Below, piece by piece: positions 14,064 through 22,129 of a stretch of DNA of 64,000 nucleotides (position 1 is the first letter of the stretch; each line of letters starts with the position of its first letter). The DNA lies in contig CALAOT010000106.1 of NCBI GenBank assembly GCA_937889545.1, positions 1 through 64,000 on the forward strand, given 5' to 3'. The DNA comes from an uncultured Opitutaceae bacterium (lineage in GTDB: Bacteria; Verrucomicrobiota; Verrucomicrobiia; Opitutales; Opitutaceae). A program made the translations under genes and the position numbers. Below the pieces are notes generated by a model, which was not told the DNA's origin, searched no databases, and saw nothing but the letters and a program-made list of their open reading frames with translations.

Positions 14064-16013
14064 ATGACTCCGGGTCACCTCCTCCTTATTGCCGCGGTTG
14101 CCATGTTTTTCGGCCTCCTTGGCGGCCGCGGAGCGCCGCGGCTTTGGTTGACGGCGATGCTCGTCGGCGGCATCGCGGCGCTCCTTGCAGCGATCCAGGT
14201 CTTCGTCAGCGGCGCGCAATGGGATTGGAGGAGTGAATTTTCAGTTTGCGGGGAGCCGCTTCACCTGCGCCTGGACGCCATGAGCGCCGTGTTCATCGCC
14301 CTCCTGGGCGCGCTGGGCGGGGCCGGCTCCGTCTACTCCTGCGAGTACTGGTCGGACAAGGCGCACCCGCGCTCCGCCCGCGCCGGCCGGATGTGGTGGA
14401 GCGCGCAGCTCCTCAGCCTTGGGCTCGTGCTGCTGTCCTCGAACGGCCTACACTTTCTCATCGCGTGGGAGCTGTATGCGGTCAGCAGCTATTTCCTGAT
14501 CACGCTCGACCGGCAAAAGCGCGAGGTCCGCGCGGCGGGTTGGCTCTATCTAGCGGCATCGCACGTGGCCGGGCTTTTTCTCTTCGCCTTCTTCGCCATG
14601 CTTGCGGGGCGCACGGGAGGCTGGGACCTGGGTCCGATGCGCGACCATGCGGAACTGGCTCCGCTGTTCTGGCTGGCCCTGTTTGGCTTCGGCATAAAGG
14701 CCGGCATGTTTCCACTGCACGTATGGCTGCCATCGGCGCACGCCAACGCGCCGAGCCACGTCTCGGCCATCATGTCCGGCGTTTCCATCAAGGTGGGAAT
14801 CTACGGCCTTGTGCGCTTCAGCGGCTGGCTGGTTGTGCCCGCAGCGGCGGGATGGGTGGTGGCGGTGCTAGGCGTGATCAGCGCGGTTCTCGGCGTCGCA
14901 TTTGCACTCGGCCAGCACGACCTCAAGCGCCTGCTCGCCTACCACAGCATCGAGAATATCGGAATCATTCTGATCGGGCTGGGGTTTGCCATGATAGCGG
15001 CGGGGCACGGCAACGCGGCCTGGGGGCGACTGGCGCTGGCGGGCGCCCTGTTGCACGTGTGGAACCACGGGCTCTTCAAGTCGCTGCTGTTCCTCGGCGC
15101 CGGCTCGGTCGTGCACGCCACGGGCACGCGCGAGATGAGCCTGCTCGGCGGATTGTGGCGGGCGATGCCGTGGACCGCCGGCCTGTTCGCGCTCGGCGCC
15201 GCTGCGATCTGCGGCCTGCCGCCTCTCAATGGCTTCGTCAGCGAATGGCTGGTGTATCTGGGGTTGTTTGACTCCCTGATCGCGCACAGCGCGGCGGCCC
15301 GCGCCGCAGTTCCGGCGGTCGTGCTCCTGGCCATGACCGGCGCCCTGGCGCTGGCATGCTTCATCAAGGCGTGCGGGGTCGTGTTCCTCGGCGCGGCGCG
15401 CACGAATGCATCGGCACGGGCGCACGAGTGCGGGCCCATGATGCGCGGGCCGATGCTCGCCCTGGCGGGCTCGTGCGTGGCGATCGGCCTGGCCCCTCTG
15501 GTATTCTGGCCTGCCGTGGCGCGCGCAGCGTCGGCGTGGAACCCCGCGTGGGCCGGCCTCGAGGCGCCGCCCTCGCTTGGCACGATCGGCGTCGCGAACG
15601 TCGCGCTGACAGTCATCGCGATCGCCGCGGTGTCGCTCCTTTGGCGGCGCACGCGCAAGAATGGCCTGCGCCGCGCGCTGACCTGGGATTGCGGCTATGC
15701 CGCGCCATCGGCCCGGATGCAGTATACGGCCGGTTCGTTTGCGGGAATCATCACGGAATGGTTTGCATGGATCCTGCGGCCCCTCCGGCACCGGCAGATC
15801 CCCGATGGGGCGTTTCCCGCCGATGCGAGCTTCGAGGAGCACACGCCGGAGACGGTGCTTGAACAGCTGATCGAACCGGCGGGCGCGGGCGCGCTGCAGG
15901 TGGCGATGGTGGCGCGGCGGCTCCAGCACGGGCGGCTGCAGGCCTATCTGCTCTACATTGTGCTCGGCTTGGCCGCACTGGCGGCAGTGGTGCTTTTCGG
16001 GGGTGGCCGATGA
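14064..16013 (+). CDS. HyfB/NuoL-like proton-translocating membrane subunit
   Basis: 649 residues, about 14-16 membrane helices, antiporter-like family. The key pumping residues line up: E136 in LIAWELYAVSSYFL (the NuoL TM5 Glu), K212 in FGIKAGMFPLHVWLP with H219 and H226, and K243 in SGVSIKVGIYGL. This matches hydrogenase-4 subunit B (HyfB) and the EhrA type. It opens a forward operon of complex-I-like genes and would move protons or sodium ions driven by electron transfer in the soluble arm. The next gene starts 22 bp later. Confidence 0.9.
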   Translation: MTPGHLLLIAAVAMFFGLLGGRGAPRLWLTAMLVGGIAALLAAIQVFVSGAQWDWRSEFSVCGEPLHLRLDAMSAVFIALLGALGGAGSVYSCEYWSDKAHPRSARAGRMWWSAQLLSLGLVLLSSNGLHFLIAWELYAVSSYFLITLDRQKREVRAAGWLYLAASHVAGLFLFAFFAMLAGRTGGWDLGPMRDHAELAPLFWLALFGFGIKAGMFPLHVWLPSAHANAPSHVSAIMSGVSIKVGIYGLVRFSGWLVVPAAAGWVVAVLGVISAVLGVAFALGQHDLKRLLAYHSIENIGIILIGLGFAMIAAGHGNAAWGRLALAGALLHVWNHGLFKSLLFLGAGSVVHATGTREMSLLGGLWRAMPWTAGLFALGAAAICGLPPLNGFVSEWLVYLGLFDSLIAHSAAARAAVPAVVLLAMTGALALACFIKACGVVFLGAARTNASARAHECGPMMRGPMLALAGSCVAIGLAPLVFWPAVARAASAWNPAWAGLEAPPSLGTIGVANVALTVIAIAAVSLLWRRTRKNGLRRALTWDCGYAAPSARMQYTAGSFAGIITEWFAWILRPLRHRQIPDGAFPADASFEEHTPETVLEQLIEPAGAGALQVAMVARRLQHGRLQAYLLYIVLGLAALAAVVLFGGGR

Positions 16014-16034: not shown

Positions 16035-16742
16035 ATGTACTTGAACCTCATCCAGATTGCGGAATCGTTCGGGGTCTCGGAGTCGGTTGTGGAGGACTGG
16101 ATTCGCAACGAAGGCCTCCCCCACACCCCCGACCGGGGGCGGCTGCTTTTCGACAGGGTGCAGGTGGCGAATTGGGCGGCGGCGCGCGGACTCGCGGCCA
16201 AGGCGGGGTTTCTCGCTCCCGAGACGCCGGCGCTTGCCGTCGCATGGCGGCTTGAGACCCTGATGCGGGCGGGCGGCATCTGGCGCGACGTGGCCGCGGA
16301 GGAGGTGCCCGGAGTGCTTGAGAGGATCATTGGCGCCCTGCCTGGCGCGACGCCCCCGATCCGCCAGATCCTCGTCCAGCGGCTCCGGTCCAAGGACGGC
16401 GTGAATTTCGCCCCAGTGGGCGGCGGGTTCGCCTTGCCGCATCTGAGCTCGCGCGTCGCGCTGGGCCGCGACTCCGGCTCGCTGGCTCTCTTGCTTCTGC
16501 GGGATCCCCTATCGGTGGCAGCGGGACTGCCCGACGACGTCCCGCTCTCACGGCTGTTCTTCTTCATCGCGCCGTCGCCGCGGGCCCATCTCGACATTCT
16601 GGGTCGGCTCTGCCGCATCCTGGATCGCGGACCGTTGCGCGAGCTGGTCACGCGGGGCGCGACGGACCAGGAGATCTTTGGAGCCCTGGCTGACGCGGAT
16701 GCGTCGGCAGCCGGGGCGGTGAGCGGGGATGTGACAAGATGA
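16035..16742 (+). CDS. HTH domain fused to a PTS EIIA (PtsN-type) domain
   Basis: 235 residues. Residues 1-50 form an excisionase/MerR-type helix-turn-helix (IQIAESFGVSESVVEDWIRNEGLPH). About residues 70-225 resemble a PTS EIIA-2/Ntr domain, with the conserved phosphorylation-site context GGGFALPHL and H136. PtsN-type domains accept phosphate through a PTS chain and regulate transport or transcription. No HPr or enzyme I gene is visible here. Its position within the complex operon, between HyfB- and HyfC-like genes, suggests that it regulates or assembles this complex; that is inference. Confidence 0.8.
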   Translation: MYLNLIQIAESFGVSESVVEDWIRNEGLPHTPDRGRLLFDRVQVANWAAARGLAAKAGFLAPETPALAVAWRLETLMRAGGIWRDVAAEEVPGVLERIIGALPGATPPIRQILVQRLRSKDGVNFAPVGGGFALPHLSSRVALGRDSGSLALLLLRDPLSVAAGLPDDVPLSRLFFFIAPSPRAHLDILGRLCRILDRGPLRELVTRGATDQEIFGALADADASAAGAVSGDVTR

Positions 16743-16831
16743 CTCCGGAGGCCCTGATTCTTCCCGCCTCGACCGGAGGTGTGTCCCTGAAGCCCGGCAG
16801 CGGAGAGGACCTTGGGGGAGGGGCGCGATGA
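16739..16831 (+). CDS. Possible 30-codon linker ORF
   Basis: The ATG overlaps the stop of the HTH-IIA gene (ATGA) and its own stop TGA overlaps the ATG of the HyfC-like gene (ATGA). The 30-residue product (MTPEALILPASTGGV...) has no known family and no membrane helix. Its 3' end carries the purine-rich GGGGGAGGGG that would be the ribosome binding site for the next gene. It may exist mainly to couple translation across the 85-bp gap. There is no protein-level evidence. Confidence 0.35.
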   Translation: MTPEALILPASTGGVSLKPGSGEDLGGGAR

Positions 16832-17736
16832 CCGCCTTCCTCGAGATCATTCTCCGCCTTGCGGTGTGGCTCGCGCTTGCGCCGCTCCTCCCGGGCATCC
16901 TCAACAAGACCAAGGCCTGGGTCGCGGGGCGCAGGGGACCGCCGGTCCTGCAGCTCTATTACGACCTGGCGCGCCTGTGGAGGAAGAGCGTGGTGCTAAG
17001 CACGCTCGCCTCGCCAGGCTTCATCGCTGGCCCGGCCGTTGCCTGGGTGGCGCTGGCCGCCGCGGCGCTCCTGGTCCCGCTCGGGCCGGCCGGCGGGGCA
17101 TTAAGCTTCAAGGGAGACGTGCTCCTGCTGGTCTACCTGCTCGCGGCGGCGCGGTTTTGCACGGCATGGGCCGCGCTCGAGGCGGGCTCTTCCTTCGAGG
17201 GCATGGGCGCCGCGCGCGAGGTGAGCTACGCGGTGCTCTCGGAGGCTGCGCTCATCACCGCCGTGCTTTCGCTGAGTGTGCAATCCGGGAGCGTCACGCT
17301 GGGCACGATGCTGACGCCCCCGGTGGGGGCTGGGGCGGCGCTACTGGCGGCCGGGCTGTTTGCGGTGCTTCTCGCGGAGAATTGCCGCGTGCCCTTTGAC
17401 GATCCCAACACCCACCTTGAGTTGACGATGATCCACGAGGCCATGGCGCTGGATCACAGCGGACCCCCGCTTGCGGTGATTCTGCACGGGGCCTCGATGA
17501 AGCTCCTGCTCTTCCTAGTCCTCCTAAGCGAAGCCGTGCTGCCGATAAGGCAATTGCCTGCGTTTACGGCGAGCGCGGCGCTGGCCGGCACGGTGCTCTC
17601 GGTAACCGTCGGCGTGGGGCTGGTGGAATCGCTGCTTGCGCGCTTCTCGTTCCGGCGCGTGCCGCTGTTGCTGACAACGGCGTTCCTGCTGTGCCTGTTC
17701 GCCTTGCTGCTGGCGTGGAAGGGGGGGGCGCAATGA
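16828..17736 (+). CDS. HyfC/NuoH-like membrane subunit
   Basis: 302 residues, about 8 membrane helices, respiratory complex I subunit 1 family. The acidic funnel residues are conserved: E124-R130-E131-E139 in SSFEGMGAAREVSYAVLSE, and E184 with DDPNTHLELTMIHEAM (D191, D192, E198, E204). This subunit joins the soluble arm to the ion-pumping arm near the quinone or ferredoxin reaction site. It overlaps the next gene by ATGA. Confidence 0.92.
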   Translation: MTAFLEIILRLAVWLALAPLLPGILNKTKAWVAGRRGPPVLQLYYDLARLWRKSVVLSTLASPGFIAGPAVAWVALAAAALLVPLGPAGGALSFKGDVLLLVYLLAAARFCTAWAALEAGSSFEGMGAAREVSYAVLSEAALITAVLSLSVQSGSVTLGTMLTPPVGAGAALLAAGLFAVLLAENCRVPFDDPNTHLELTMIHEAMALDHSGPPLAVILHGASMKLLLFLVLLSEAVLPIRQLPAFTASAALAGTVLSVTVGVGLVESLLARFSFRRVPLLLTTAFLLCLFALLLAWKGGAQ

Positions 17737-18374
17737 GCTCCTCCGTGAACCTCCTGATCGGCCTGGCGATGGGCCTGAATCTGCTCGCGCTCGGCAGCAG
17801 CCGGATGCCATCCGTCATCCGCATCGTTGCCGCGCAGGGCGTTGCACTCGGGTTGATTCCCTTCTTCATGGAGGACCGGTTCGGTTGGCTGGTCGCGCTT
17901 GTCGCGGCCGGCACCGTGGCGGTGAAGGGCCTTGTGATCCCCAATCTTCTGCACCGGGCGATGCGGACCGCGAAGATCGACCGCGAGATCGAGCCGTCCA
18001 TCGGGTTCGTGCCCTCGATGCTCCTGGGGGCCGGCGGGACGATGGCGGCGGTCGACGGCGCGCAGTTGCTGCCGCTGCTGAGCGAGCACGCCGGAACCCT
18101 GCTGGTCCCAGGCGCGCTGGCCTCGATCTTCACCGGCTTCATCCTGCTCATCGGCCGGGTGACGGCCATTTCTCAGGTCTGCGGCTATCTGATCCTGGAC
18201 AACGGCATCTACCTAATTGGGCTCCTGCTCATCCACTCGACGCCCCTGCTGGTGGAGTCGGGGATCCTTCTGGATCTCACCGTCGCTGTGTTCGTGATCG
18301 GGATCATCATGGACCGCATCCAGCGGGCGTTTGACTCGCTGGACACCCGCAAGCTGACCGTGCTCCGGGAATGA
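17733..18374 (+). CDS. HyfE-like membrane subunit (hydrogenase-4 component E)
   Basis: 213 residues from the ATG at 17733, with about 6-7 membrane helices. It resembles HyfE, which corresponds to a NuoJ/NuoK-like module: short hydrophobic helices with MEDRFGWLVALVAAG, an acidic KIDREIEPSIGF loop and a C-terminal MDRIQRAFDSLDT amphipathic tail. It overlaps its neighbours by ATGA on both sides, so it is translated within the same coupled operon. Confidence 0.85.
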   Translation: MSSSVNLLIGLAMGLNLLALGSSRMPSVIRIVAAQGVALGLIPFFMEDRFGWLVALVAAGTVAVKGLVIPNLLHRAMRTAKIDREIEPSIGFVPSMLLGAGGTMAAVDGAQLLPLLSEHAGTLLVPGALASIFTGFILLIGRVTAISQVCGYLILDNGIYLIGLLLIHSTPLLVESGILLDLTVAVFVIGIIMDRIQRAFDSLDTRKLTVLRE

Positions 18375-19813
18375 AGGGACTTCTGCTCATATTTGTGCCC
18401 GTCGCTGGGGCCGCGCTGGCGGCGGCGTGGCCAAGCGAGCGAACCCGCCCGTGGCTGCTGCCCGCGGTGGGCGTCGTCCACACGGCGCTCGCCTTCTGGC
18501 TGCTGATGCACCCGCCGGTCGTCGCGCCTGCCGCATGGCTGGGCTTCGACCAGCTGGCGCGGGCCGTGCTGCCGGTCGTGTCGCTCCTGTTCCTGGTCTG
18601 CGCGGCCTATGCGGTGCCCTACCTCGGCCTGCGCGCGGAGCGCCCCAACCGCGTATTCGTTGCGTCCTTGCTTGCGGTGCTCGGCTTGATGAGCGCGGCG
18701 CACCAGGCGCGCCACCTCGGACTTCTGTGGATCACGACGGAGGCGGTCACGCTTGCGACGGTGCCGCTGTTGCATTTCAACGGGACGCCGCGGGCCTTCG
18801 AGGCAACCTGGAAATACCTGCTGATCGGCGGCACGGGCATAGCCCTTTCCCTGCTGGGAACGTTCTGCCTGGGTTACGCCTACATCCTGGGGGGGGGCGG
18901 CGGCGACCTGACGTTCGTCACGCTGATGGCGCACGGCGCGGCCCTCTCCCGCCCATGGGTCCTTACGGCATGGGTGCTGCTTCTGGTGGGCTACGGGACC
19001 AAGATGGGCCTGGCACCCATGCACACATGGAAGCCGGACGCGTACGGCGAGGCCCCGGGCATCGTGGGGGCGATGCTCGCCGGAGGCGTGACCACGGTGG
19101 CGTTTGCGGCGCTCTTGCGGGTGCGCGCGGTGGTCGATGCTGCCGGCGAGGCTGCCGTGACCAGCCGCACGCTGCTCGTCATAGGGTTGTTCTCCATGCT
19201 GGTGGCCGCCGTGTTCCTGCTGGGCACGCGCGACTTCAAGCGCATGCTCGCCTATTCGAGCGTCGAGCAGATGGGCATCCTGGCCAGCGGCGCGGCGTTC
19301 GGCGCCACAGGGGTGTGGGCCGTCCTGTTCCACGTCTGGAACAACAGCCTGACCAAGGGCGCGCTCTTCCTGAGCGCGGGCACGATCCGCCGCGCCGCCG
19401 GCGCACGCACCAGCGAGGAGGTCAGGGGCATGTCGGCGATCACCCCGCAATCGGCGGCGATCTTCGTGGCCGGCATGCTTGCCATCTCCGCCTGCCCTCC
19501 ATTCGGCCCGTTCTTCAGCGAGCTGCGGGTGCTGCGGGCTGCGTTTGAGACGGGGCACGGTGCCGCAGCCGGCATGTTCCTCGGATGCCTGCTGTTCGCC
19601 TTCTTCGGCATGACGCGGCTGGTGCTTTCCATCGTCGACGGCCGGCCGCGCGGCGGCGTGAGAAACGCGAGGAGGCGAATTCGCGAGACCGCGGGCGTAG
19701 TCGCGCCGCCGCTGGTGCTGCTGGGCCTCTCGCTTTGGCTGGGCCTGGCGACGCCCGAGACGCTGCGCGACGCGTGGGCGGCCGCGGTGGCCCAGCTGTC
19801 GCCCGCGCCATGA
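18371..19813 (+). CDS. HyfF/NuoN-like proton-translocating membrane subunit
   Basis: 480 residues, about 14 membrane helices, the second antiporter-like subunit. E124 in WITTEAVTLAT and K211 in GYGTKMGLAPMHTWKPDAYGEAP with H218 and K221 match the family. The TM8 lysine of NuoL/HyfB is not obvious here (LAGGVTTVAFAALLR). Together with the HyfB-like subunit it gives the complex two potential ion pumps. It overlaps both neighbours by ATGA. Confidence 0.9.
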   Translation: MKGLLLIFVPVAGAALAAAWPSERTRPWLLPAVGVVHTALAFWLLMHPPVVAPAAWLGFDQLARAVLPVVSLLFLVCAAYAVPYLGLRAERPNRVFVASLLAVLGLMSAAHQARHLGLLWITTEAVTLATVPLLHFNGTPRAFEATWKYLLIGGTGIALSLLGTFCLGYAYILGGGGGDLTFVTLMAHGAALSRPWVLTAWVLLLVGYGTKMGLAPMHTWKPDAYGEAPGIVGAMLAGGVTTVAFAALLRVRAVVDAAGEAAVTSRTLLVIGLFSMLVAAVFLLGTRDFKRMLAYSSVEQMGILASGAAFGATGVWAVLFHVWNNSLTKGALFLSAGTIRRAAGARTSEEVRGMSAITPQSAAIFVAGMLAISACPPFGPFFSELRVLRAAFETGHGAAAGMFLGCLLFAFFGMTRLVLSIVDGRPRGGVRNARRRIRETAGVVAPPLVLLGLSLWLGLATPETLRDAWAAAVAQLSPAP

Positions 19814-21291
19814 GCAGGTCCTCGTCATTCGCCCCCTTGGCCAACTCGACGTGCATCCCATGGGCGGAGGTGCCCGAGTGGCCGTTGGCGGAGCTCGTGC
19901 GCGAGACTTCGGCCGATCTGGAACGCGGCGCCCGGCTGTGCGCGTGGCTCGGCGTTCCGGAAGGGGCTGGAACGCGCCTCGTTGCCGTAATCGCGTTCGA
20001 CGGGGACAACACGCTGGCCGCCGCGCGCAGCTTTCCCGCGGCCGGCGCCTATGCGGCGCTCACGCCGGCGCATCCGCAGGCGCATATGTTCGAGCGCGAG
20101 GTGTGGGAGCAATACGGCCTCCTGCCGCAAGGCCATCCCTGGCTTAAGCCCGTGCGCAGAAGCGCCGGCGCCTACCCGGCGTCCGGAGAATTCTTCCGCG
20201 TGGAGGGCCGCGAGGTTCACGAGGTCGCAGTCGGCCCGGTTCACGCCGGGATTATTGAGCCCGGGCATTTCCGCTTTCAGTGCTCGGGCGAGGAGGTGCT
20301 GCACCTCGAGATAGCGCTCGGGTACCAGCACCGGGGTGTTGAGCGGGGACTTGCAGGGGGGCCGCACCGGGCAACGATGAGCCAGATGGAGGCCGTTGCC
20401 GGCGACACGACGATCGGTCACGCCACAGCGTACGCGTCAGTGATGGAGGCGCTCGCTGGCGAGGAGGCGCCGCTGCGGGCGCAATGGCTGCGCCTTGTCG
20501 CGCTTGAGCTCGAACGGCTGGCGAACCACACCGGCGACCTGGGCGCGTTGGCAAATGACGTGGCCTTTCTGCCCGCCGCGTCGGCGTGCGGCAGGATCCG
20601 CGGCGATTTCCTGAACCTGACGGCGCTTCTCTGCGGCAACCGGTTCGGGCGGGGGCTGGTGAGGCCTGGCGGCTGCCGCCACGACCTGGAGCCAGGTCGG
20701 CTGTCGCAGCTCGCCGGGCGGCTCGGCGCCGCCCTGGTCGAAGTGGAGCAGGCGGCCGAATGGCTGTGGGACGCCGCCTCGGTGCGCGCGCGCTTCGAGG
20801 GCGCGGGCACGGTGTCCCCGAGCCAGGCGGCGGAGATCGGCTTGGTCGGGCCGGCCGCGCGGGCCTGTGGCCTGGTGCGCGACGTCCGCTACGATCATCC
20901 GGCAGGCTGGCATCGCCTGGCGCAGGCGCCGGTGGCGGTCTGGCCAAGCGGCGACGTGTTTGCGCGCGCGCGGGTGCGCTGGCTTGAGATCCAACGTTCC
21001 GGCCAGCTGCTCAGGGAGCAGCTCGGCGCGGCGCCCGATGGCGACATCCGCAGCGACCCTGGCCCGAACGCGCCGGACCGCCTGGCTGTGGCGCTGGTTG
21101 AAGGCTGGCGCGGAGAGGTGTGCCATGTGGCGCTCACCGACGCCGCGGGTCGTTTCCGGCGCTACAAGATCGTAGACCCCTCGTTCCACAACTGGATCGG
21201 CCTTGCATTGGCGATGCGCGGCCAGGCGGTCTCGGATTTCCCGATCTGCAATAAGAGCTTCAACCTCTCGTATTGCGGCTTCGATCTTTGA
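19810..21291 (+). CDS. HyfG/NuoCD-like large subunit lacking NiFe cysteines
   Basis: 493 residues. The N-terminal ~125 residues resemble NuoC/30-kDa (FEREVWEQYGLLPQGHPWLKPVRR). The rest is a hydrogenase-large-subunit/NuoD domain (GPVHAGIIEPGHFRF, LGYQHRGVERG, LVALELERLANHTGDLG). In group-4 hydrogenases the L1 site reads CGxC; here VAGDTTIGH has A197 and T200. The C-terminal L2 CxxC is replaced by FNLSYCGFDL (S487 and G490). So none of the four NiFe ligands remains, as in NuoD and Ehr complexes. It is probably not a hydrogenase. Confidence 0.88.
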   Translation: MSRSSSFAPLANSTCIPWAEVPEWPLAELVRETSADLERGARLCAWLGVPEGAGTRLVAVIAFDGDNTLAAARSFPAAGAYAALTPAHPQAHMFEREVWEQYGLLPQGHPWLKPVRRSAGAYPASGEFFRVEGREVHEVAVGPVHAGIIEPGHFRFQCSGEEVLHLEIALGYQHRGVERGLAGGPHRATMSQMEAVAGDTTIGHATAYASVMEALAGEEAPLRAQWLRLVALELERLANHTGDLGALANDVAFLPAASACGRIRGDFLNLTALLCGNRFGRGLVRPGGCRHDLEPGRLSQLAGRLGAALVEVEQAAEWLWDAASVRARFEGAGTVSPSQAAEIGLVGPAARACGLVRDVRYDHPAGWHRLAQAPVAVWPSGDVFARARVRWLEIQRSGQLLREQLGAAPDGDIRSDPGPNAPDRLAVALVEGWRGEVCHVALTDAAGRFRRYKIVDPSFHNWIGLALAMRGQAVSDFPICNKSFNLSYCGFDL

Positions 21292-21310: not shown

Positions 21311-22129
21311 ATGTTCGTCTTCGACACCATCAAGCATCGGCTGAAGCGCGGCTGCGAAACGATGGCTTATCCCAAGGGCCCGCCGCCGCCGCTGCCCGAC
21401 CGGCACGGGGGCGCGCTGCGAGTCGACGGGGCGAAATGCCCGGTAGGCTGCAATGAGTGCGTTCCCGTGTGTCCGACGCAGGCGATCGCGCACCCCGCGG
21501 GCAGGGGAATTGCGCTGGATCTGGGGCGCTGCCTGTTCTGTGCCGCCTGCGTGGAGGCTTGCCCGCACGGCGCGATCACGCAGACCGGCGACCACCGCAT
21601 GGCGGCACGCCGGCGCGAAGACCTGGTGCTCGGCGAACCCGGCGCGGAGACGGTGAGGCTTGCGGCGGCCCTGGATGGCAAGCTGCGCAGGCTCTTCGGG
21701 CGCTCGCTCAGGCTTCGCGTCGTGAGCGCCGGCGGCTGCGGCGCAGCGGAGGCCGACCTGAATGTGCTCGGCACGGTCGGCTGGGACATCGGCCGCTTCG
21801 GCATACAGTTCGTCGCCTCGCCGCGCCATGCGGACGGGCTGGTCATCACGGGGCCCGTTTCGCAGAGCATGGAGCTGGCCCTGAGAAAGACGTGGGAAGC
21901 CATGCCGGAGCCGAAGATCGTGATCGCCGTCGGGGCGTGTGCGATCTCGGGCGGGCCGTTTGCCGGCAATCCCGAGGTGATGAACGGAGCGGAGGCGGTC
22001 GTGCCGGTCGATCTCTTCATCCCGGGATGGCCGCCGCATCCGCTGACAATTCTCGACGGCCTGCTCCGGCTGCTGGGAAGGGTGGAGGGCACCCGCTTCC
22101 CCGCGCAGGACCACGAGCCCCGGAACTGA
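21311..22129 (+). CDS. Ferredoxin-NuoB/HyfI fusion small subunit, degenerate proximal cluster
   Basis: 272 residues. The N-terminal ferredoxin domain has two 4Fe-4S motifs: C43-x3-C47-x2-C50-x3-C54-P (first spacing x3, unusual) and C74-x2-C77-x2-C80-x3-C84-P. The C-terminal domain is NuoB/HycG-like (WDIGRFGIQFVASPRHADGLVITGPV). Of the four proximal-cluster cysteines only C143 and C210 remain; the others are A146 and W240 (IPGWPPHP for IPGCPP). It is the last gene of the operon and would bring electrons from a soluble donor to the large subunit. Confidence 0.87.
   Translation: MFVFDTIKHRLKRGCETMAYPKGPPPPLPDRHGGALRVDGAKCPVGCNECVPVCPTQAIAHPAGRGIALDLGRCLFCAACVEACPHGAITQTGDHRMAARRREDLVLGEPGAETVRLAAALDGKLRRLFGRSLRLRVVSAGGCGAAEADLNVLGTVGWDIGRFGIQFVASPRHADGLVITGPVSQSMELALRKTWEAMPEPKIVIAVGACAISGGPFAGNPEVMNGAEAVVPVDLFIPGWPPHPLTILDGLLRLLGRVEGTRFPAQDHEPRN

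Follow-up and report, generated by a model that had tools for sequence, protein, structure and literature searches.

The window, a stretch of 64,000 nucleotides from an uncultured Opitutaceae bacterium (GenBank assembly GCA_937889545.1, contig CALAOT010000106.1, positions 1 to 64,000 of the forward strand), contains an operon for a relative of the group-4 [NiFe] hydrogenases and of complex I in which two metal sites have lost ligands. All four Cys ligands of the nickel-iron (NiFe) site are replaced in the large subunit, and the HyfI-like small subunit is without two of the four ligands of the proximal iron-sulfur (Fe-S) cluster, termed N2 in complex I. From these sequences we tentatively read the locus (probability about 45%) as encoding an ion translocator of the hydrogenase-related Ehr type in which electrons no longer reach the former active site by way of N2. 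A class lacking NiFe ligands is already known; what appears new is the loss of proximal-cluster ligands in one lineage with the remainder of the complex kept. Debate continues over how complex I couples electron transfer to the pumping of ions. A natural relative that retains the membrane arm and peripheral fold but has lost the last cluster's ligands would dissociate redox chemistry from the machinery that moves ions, and could show what the antiporter-like subunits do alone.

Ligand losses in the two peripheral subunits

The two peripheral subunits and their ligand sites lie at the following positions of the window:

19810-21291, + strand: large subunit (HyfG/NuoCD-like) without NiFe ligands (Pfam, alignment, solved-chain matches)
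20398-20409, + strand: L1 site, A197-G-D-T200, aligned to CGIC of HycE/HyfG
21268-21279, + strand: L2 site, S487-Y-C-G490, aligned to CYSC of HycE/HyfG
21311-22129, + strand: small subunit, a ferredoxin domain fused to a NuoB-like domain (Fer4, Oxidored_q6; nearest chains 6cfw_J and 7z0s_G)
21437-21562, + strand: eight ferredoxin-type Cys (43, 47, 50, 54, 74, 77, 80, 84), kept (alignment)
21737-21748, + strand: N2 ligand positions 1 and 2, C143 and A146, aligned to GGCNxC of HycG/HyfI
21938-21940, + strand: N2 ligand position 3, C210 (alignment)
22028-22030, + strand: N2 ligand position 4, W240, replacing the Cys of PGCPP (alignment)

The large subunit (493 aa, ATG start, stop codon ending at 21291) matches Complex1_49kDa and, marginally, Complex1_30kDa in Pfam. 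Its closest solved chain by sequence, the large subunit (subunit 5) of E. coli formate hydrogenlyase (7z0s_E, E-value 6e-44), is also the top fold match of its AlphaFold2 model (template modeling score, TM-score, 0.85 by query length), which has a mean predicted local distance difference test (pLDDT) score of 82.6, with values below 50 at residues 143-152 and in the L2 tail (487-493). When aligned to HycE and HyfG of E. coli K-12, the four [NiFe] Cys are replaced by A197, T200, S487, and G490. The original prediction, made from the letters of the window, had read L1 and L2 in just this way and had concluded that Ni-Fe binding by the usual ligands is not possible; both statements stand, as all four sites lack Cys, and the Pfam and NCBIfam matches agree with the group-4 hydrogenase/complex I architecture that it had given the operon. 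Cys pairs elsewhere in the protein that occupy the ligand positions, which it had named as grounds against itself, were sought in the alignment and none was seen; a hydrogenase with displaced ligands was rejected on the same alignment, which has no Cys pair at the ligand columns. The protein stops at L493, four residues past Cys489, and HycE and HyfG extend beyond L2; in hydrogenases, the C-terminal extension after L2 is cleaved during maturation. A HypD gene, considered as evidence of maturation, was set aside because it lies on another contig of the same genome and does not discriminate.

None of the 89 aligned family rows (window included) has Cys at any of the four NiFe positions. Residue 197 is A (77 rows) or S (12) and residue 200 is T (77), A (6), or S (6), with S at 487 and G at 490 in every row; the residues in seven paralogues are S, S, S, and G. 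Since Cys is absent throughout, loss of the NiFe ligands is a family trait, and because the same residues recur across the 89 rows, chance or sequencing error is excluded. The loss is not new in itself, given that Ehr complexes have the same trait in the available portions of their published descriptions (PMC10284858, PMC6349859).

The proximal cluster, held by small-subunit Cys, passes electrons to the active-site cavity, according to the accessible part of PMC7684303. Aligned to HycG, HyfI, NuoB, and the relative L055, the four N2 ligand positions of the window are C143, A146, C210, and W240; neither this loss of two ligands nor the ferredoxin fusion figured in the original prediction. Among 85 assessable orthologues, 75 have the full CCCC set and 10 a broken one, a count that left out orthologue rows L067 and L115 (region absent) and eleven paralogue or unrelated rows. 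Nine of the ten N2-less rows are Verrucomicrobia, all with Trp at the fourth site (window CACW, L054 NEDW, L043 DACW, L066 DVCW, L045 DDAW, L042 DDGW, L047 CESW, L056 DADW, and L051 SEEW), and the tenth is the planctomycete L099 (DACS). In the lineage of the window the fourth position is thus a fixed Trp while the other three drift. Together the ten rows have Cys at 6 of 40 N2 positions vs. 80 of 80 ferredoxin positions.

Replacement ligands were sought as Cys or His residues that are rare in other rows but shared by at least half of the nine N2-less rows from Verrucomicrobia. The large subunit gained neither; the small subunit gained one His, at position 86, adjoining the last ferredoxin Cys, and no Cys was gained elsewhere in either peripheral subunit. 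The AlphaFold2 model of the small subunit has a mean pLDDT of 82.1, and its best fold match spans the NuoB-like part only (TM-score 0.49, query length). At the codon level, the pattern for PGWPPHPxT occurs in 2 of 387 genomes of the phylum (that of the window and G015) and its Cys-codon version in 38 of 387, with none for the backward control. A literature search by literal phrases for an absent cluster N2 found no paper; it left bioRxiv preprints uncovered and reached subscription papers sparsely, and does not show that the loss is unpublished.

As positions that set the two groups apart, we counted those that are rare in the N2-less rows and reach at least 90% fixation among the N2-intact Verrucomicrobia rows. 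The small subunit has six (61, 143, 146, 178, 198, and 240), three being N2 ligands, the large subunit has two (370 and 195, the latter two residues before L1), and B, X, C, E, and F have none. Group-specific change is therefore limited to the two peripheral-arm subunits. Both are under purifying selection: ratios of nonsynonymous to synonymous substitution rates (dN/dS; Nei-Gojobori), calculated for the nine Verrucomicrobia N2-less rows and for twelve N2-intact rows of our choosing, have medians of 0.132 (36 N2-less pairs) vs. 0.136 (66 N2-intact pairs) for the small subunit and of 0.153 vs. 0.128 for the large subunit, figures that are rough because median dS exceeds 1. An operon decaying toward a pseudogene would fit the loss of two metal sites and of the antiporter gene B2 (see below). 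The open frames, the low dN/dS, the same Trp in ten genomes, the restriction of change to the two peripheral subunits, and the retention of all 80 ferredoxin Cys make decay very improbable.

Distribution and number of losses

A scan of GTDB genomes gave 105 stretches encoding a relative. Among the best 80, which were kept, relatives come mainly from Verrucomicrobiota and Planctomycetota, with a few in Riflebacteria, Omnitrophota, Myxococcota, Gemmatimonadota, Desulfovibrio, and others. The window's own genome has, on a separate contig, a second complex with 40% identity, plus two NuoD-like genes at 28-30%, and in L051, L054, and L055 a paralogue at ∼40% lies directly upstream of the window-type large/small pair. 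This paralogous complex (∼40% identity; L005, L051-L055) has intact N2 ligands and four of the eight ferredoxin Cys. Two Omnitrophota relatives (L110:2995-3768 and L116:10489-11265) likewise have intact N2 ligands and have lost three and two ferredoxin Cys, respectively. Two further loci are unusual in their gene structure: L113:1-13055 holds two differing window-type gene sets in tandem, one near that of the window (848 bits) and one nearer the planctomycete branch (591 bits), and the large subunit at L121:8962-10400, from a metagenome-assembled genome, is spread over two overlapping reading frames, through a frameshift or an assembly error.

Within the family of the window, 37 of 252 genomes searched had a close match (window's included). 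Eight of the 29 other close-match loci that were fetched are N2-less, seven of them known already and one new (L154, SEEW), bringing the genomes with Trp at the fourth N2 position to ten. Because the L051 genome (G015) is a single contig rated 100% complete, assembly error is unlikely as the cause.

In a small-subunit tree calculated without the four ligand columns, the nine Trp rows form one clade (Shimodaira-Hasegawa-like approximate likelihood ratio test, SH-aLRT, 95), with two changes in total. The large-subunit tree requires five changes (L099 included) and places L066, L047, and L051 apart from the other six; constraining the nine to stay together gave a log-likelihood 137.6 above that of the free search, and a single clade of nine was not rejected by the approximately unbiased (AU) test for this subunit (p 0.998). 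L099 falls apart from the clade of nine in both trees, which are quick ones and do not include L154. Base errors are possible in L099, as its contig name implies ∼1-fold coverage. The N2 ligands were lost in one lineage and, apparently, a further time elsewhere.

Annotated relatives came from a plasmid collection only, from which 5 of 238 matching records were opened, and in the alignment all five are without the usual NiFe ligands. Those on Variovorax, Rhodococcus, Rhizobium, and Burkholderia plasmids retain N2 CCCC, and the small subunits of the last three have no ferredoxin domain in the alignment. The Rhizobium large subunit (L190:8728-10245) is annotated as a "nickel-dependent hydrogenase large subunit" and has no Cys at the usual ligand positions, a caution against naming such genes hydrogenases. 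The fifth relative is from a cultured organism, Allomeiothermus silvanus DSM 9946, and has T, D, E, and S at the N2 positions. Of its eight ferredoxin positions four are Cys, and its small subunit has no Pfam match to a ferredoxin domain. Its Ehr-like complex, on plasmid pMESIL01 (L188:8944-11093), thus has no NiFe or N2 ligands; two hypothetical genes without a Pfam match lie downstream, and a second small-subunit copy occurs on the same plasmid (21491-22294 of the record, 268 of 290 residues identical). Going by its distance and differing residues rather than by a tree, we infer that the Allomeiothermus loss was separate from the others, and such complexes seem to have shortened their Fe-S wire at one end or the other. 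Since this organism is cultured, the question can be tested.

Operon layout and predicted function

The remaining genes of the operon precede the large subunit:

14064-16013, + strand: HyfB-like antiporter subunit (B1), Proton_antipo_M; top NCBIfam match hydrogenase 4 subunit B, under the cut-off
16035-16742, + strand: gene X, a helix-turn-helix (HTH_17) plus phosphotransferase system (PTS) EIIA-2 protein, likely a regulator (Pfam; EIIA-type His136)
16828-17736, + strand: NuoH/HyfC-like membrane subunit (NADHdh)
17733-18374, + strand: HyfE-like membrane subunit; NCBIfam hydrogenase 4 membrane subunit, E-value 5e-19, under the cut-off, with no match in Pfam
18371-19813, + strand: HyfF-like antiporter subunit (Proton_antipo_M)

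In many relatives the gene order is B1-X-B2-C-E-F-G-HI. Gene X, whose product combines the HTH and EIIA domains with an ALPH-type motif, is located within the operon of many relatives. Its EIIA match in Pfam is narrowly above the cut-off and its HTH match narrowly below, and the EIIA-type His136 is present in all 41 aligned rows; a role as a phosphotransferase-linked regulator of the complex is possible.

Read by eye, subunit B has the Glu and Lys residues that characterize antiporter-like subunits, and F has most of them. Because these antiporter-type residues are kept, moving ions is what the complex most likely still does, and because the ligands of the last Fe-S cluster are lost too, electron delivery to the cavity by the known route is unlikely. 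Intact genes after a double loss may hint at ion movement without the usual redox chemistry. The peripheral arm, already without a NiFe site, has in the window's lineage lost the N2 [4Fe-4S] ligand set as well. Under the proposed mechanism, the complex would still use its antiporter-like subunits to move cations (H+, Na+, or K+), with this movement not driven by electrons passing via N2 to a substrate in the old cavity. The two remaining ferredoxin-type clusters could sense or gate, responding to redox or ferredoxin state without turnover, or could serve another site, and the HTH-EIIA protein would likely act as the regulator. More generally, it is possible, at somewhat below even odds, that this is a complex I-like translocator working without electron transfer to its catalytic subunit, in which the NiFe site went first and the proximal cluster followed, on what look like three occasions (Opitutaceae clade, planctomycete, and Allomeiothermus), with the complex under selection. 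If true, complex I would have a naturally redox-uncoupled relative, its peripheral arm a switch and not an engine.

Several observations weigh against such an ion translocator. The window itself retains two N2 Cys, and the complete conservation of the ferredoxin clusters points to continued entry of electrons, which leaves a redox role possible. Residues of the large-subunit cavity are kept (H145 in 86 of 88 orthologues; D199, H204, and H439 in all 88), as are six family-specific Cys, in N2-less rows as elsewhere, and some chemistry may therefore still run in this subunit, whose median dN/dS is slightly higher in the N2-less group. On the membrane side, the B2 antiporter gene of many relatives is missing at the window locus (the closest B2-like gene in the genome is B1, at 61% identity), and the Lys/His of transmembrane helix 8 (TM8) is not evident in the HyfF-like subunit when aligned by eye.

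The ferredoxin and cavity residues would also fit a ferredoxin-driven redox pump, in which the N2 gap is crossed (e.g., via Trp240) or a labile cluster is bound, and an acceptor is reduced in the cavity; with N2 kept in most orthologues, the family overall could well be driven by redox chemistry. For the N2-less rows, however, the ligand positions vary freely, unlike a metal site, neither peripheral subunit gained a Cys elsewhere, and electrons would cross the distance left by a missing N2 too slowly. His145 aligns with the quinone His of NuoD, where His and Tyr have quinone-binding roles, but the Tyr position is occupied by Gly (G198). We consider a pump of this kind unlikely for the window, though a contender. 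The original prediction had proposed a candidate new redox-driven ion pump; its novelty is not supported, the NiFe-ligand loss having been published for Ehr, and its redox drive is weakened by the loss of N2 ligands in the window's clade.

The six Cys could alternatively bind a new cofactor in the large subunit, with electrons arriving without N2. C158, C260, C438, and C489 are each present in 87 of 88 orthologues, C275 in 88, and C480 in 83; all are absent from the seven paralogues, none is Cys in HycE, and the N2-less rows keep them. Cys489 stands alone between the L2 ligand positions, opposite a Ser in HycE. Residues 260 and 275 share one predicted helix (254-275), though, and at least three of the six are missing in four of the five distant relatives, which leaves a new cofactor a distinctly unlikely explanation.

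A role in inorganic carbon uptake, energizing or coupled to bicarbonate transport by a SulP-type protein or CO2 hydration by a DabA-type one, would be compatible with any of these mechanisms. Seven of the 65 loci that include 400 bp or more of upstream sequence have a SulP gene immediately before the operon on the same strand (L056, L057, L068, L072, L079, L086, and L096), and ten of the 65 have one anywhere in the fetched stretch. The N2-less loci with SulP in or beside them are L043, L045, L056, and L051 (the last via extension L139), and SulP also stands beside the paralogue-type operon L053, its best solved match being 6ki1, which we take to be BicA. In four loci DabA comes right after the small subunit:

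L090:11349-14327, L118:3782-7060, L128:2598-4778, L132:2914-5859: DabA (PF10070) after the small subunit of an Ehr-type operon

Against this stand the 58 of 65 loci, window included, that have no SulP directly upstream, and SulP proteins also transport sulfate and other anions. No SulP match, and no DabA match at 80 bits or more, was found in the window. A role in carbon uptake is improbable on this evidence, and we treat the link with bicarbonate/CO2 uptake as a lead, not a result. The window also carries fermentation-type genes at 25250-49049: an acyl-CoA synthetase with a GNAT domain, two acetate kinases, a phosphoketolase, and a 2-oxoacid:ferredoxin oxidoreductase.

Comparison with known systems

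With complex I (NuoD, NuoB) the window complex shares the fold and the loss of all NiFe ligands. It differs in the Gly at the quinone Tyr position, in the lost proximal-cluster ligands, and in having no NADH-module gene among the identified neighbors of the operon. Relative to group-4 [NiFe] hydrogenases, it lacks the four Cys ligands and the C-terminal extension. E. coli formate hydrogenlyase and hydrogenase 4 (HycE, HyfG, HycG, HyfI) provide the closest solved large subunit and a similar gene order, whereas the window has broken proximal-cluster ligands and nothing after L2.

Pyrococcus MBS is a relative in which the NiFe site and proximal cluster are both altered; per the accessible part of its description, its proximal cluster is catalytic and bound by three Cys, and two Cys of the NiFe site remain (PMC7684303). 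The N2-less rows differ from it in keeping between zero and two Cys at N2 and none at the NiFe site; for the window the counts are two and zero. The DAB system, a DabA-DabB heterodimer with a NuoL-like ion-conducting subunit without redox cofactors (PMC13144422, in the portion available), resembles the window complex in its NuoL-like subunits, and DabA trails Ehr-type operons in the four loci listed above, but the window has no match to the DabA partner (PF10070).

The likeness to Ehr complexes drawn by the original prediction agrees with their published descriptions. Geobacter GSU0739-0745 is among the named Ehr. As far as the available text of PMC6349859 and PMC10284858 goes, Ehr are group-4 hydrogenase relatives without Ni/Fe-binding residues or CxxC motifs, with Mrp antiporter-like subunits, and with function unknown. 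The window likewise has a group-4/complex I-type large subunit without Ni-Fe ligands and antiporter-like membrane subunits, and we assign its predicted complex to Ehr on the published description, the comparison with named Ehr being by description only. It departs from them in two respects: its clade has lost proximal-cluster ligands, a loss that goes unmentioned in the available portions of both papers and contrasts with the intact set usual in relatives, and its ferredoxin and NuoB-like parts form a single protein.

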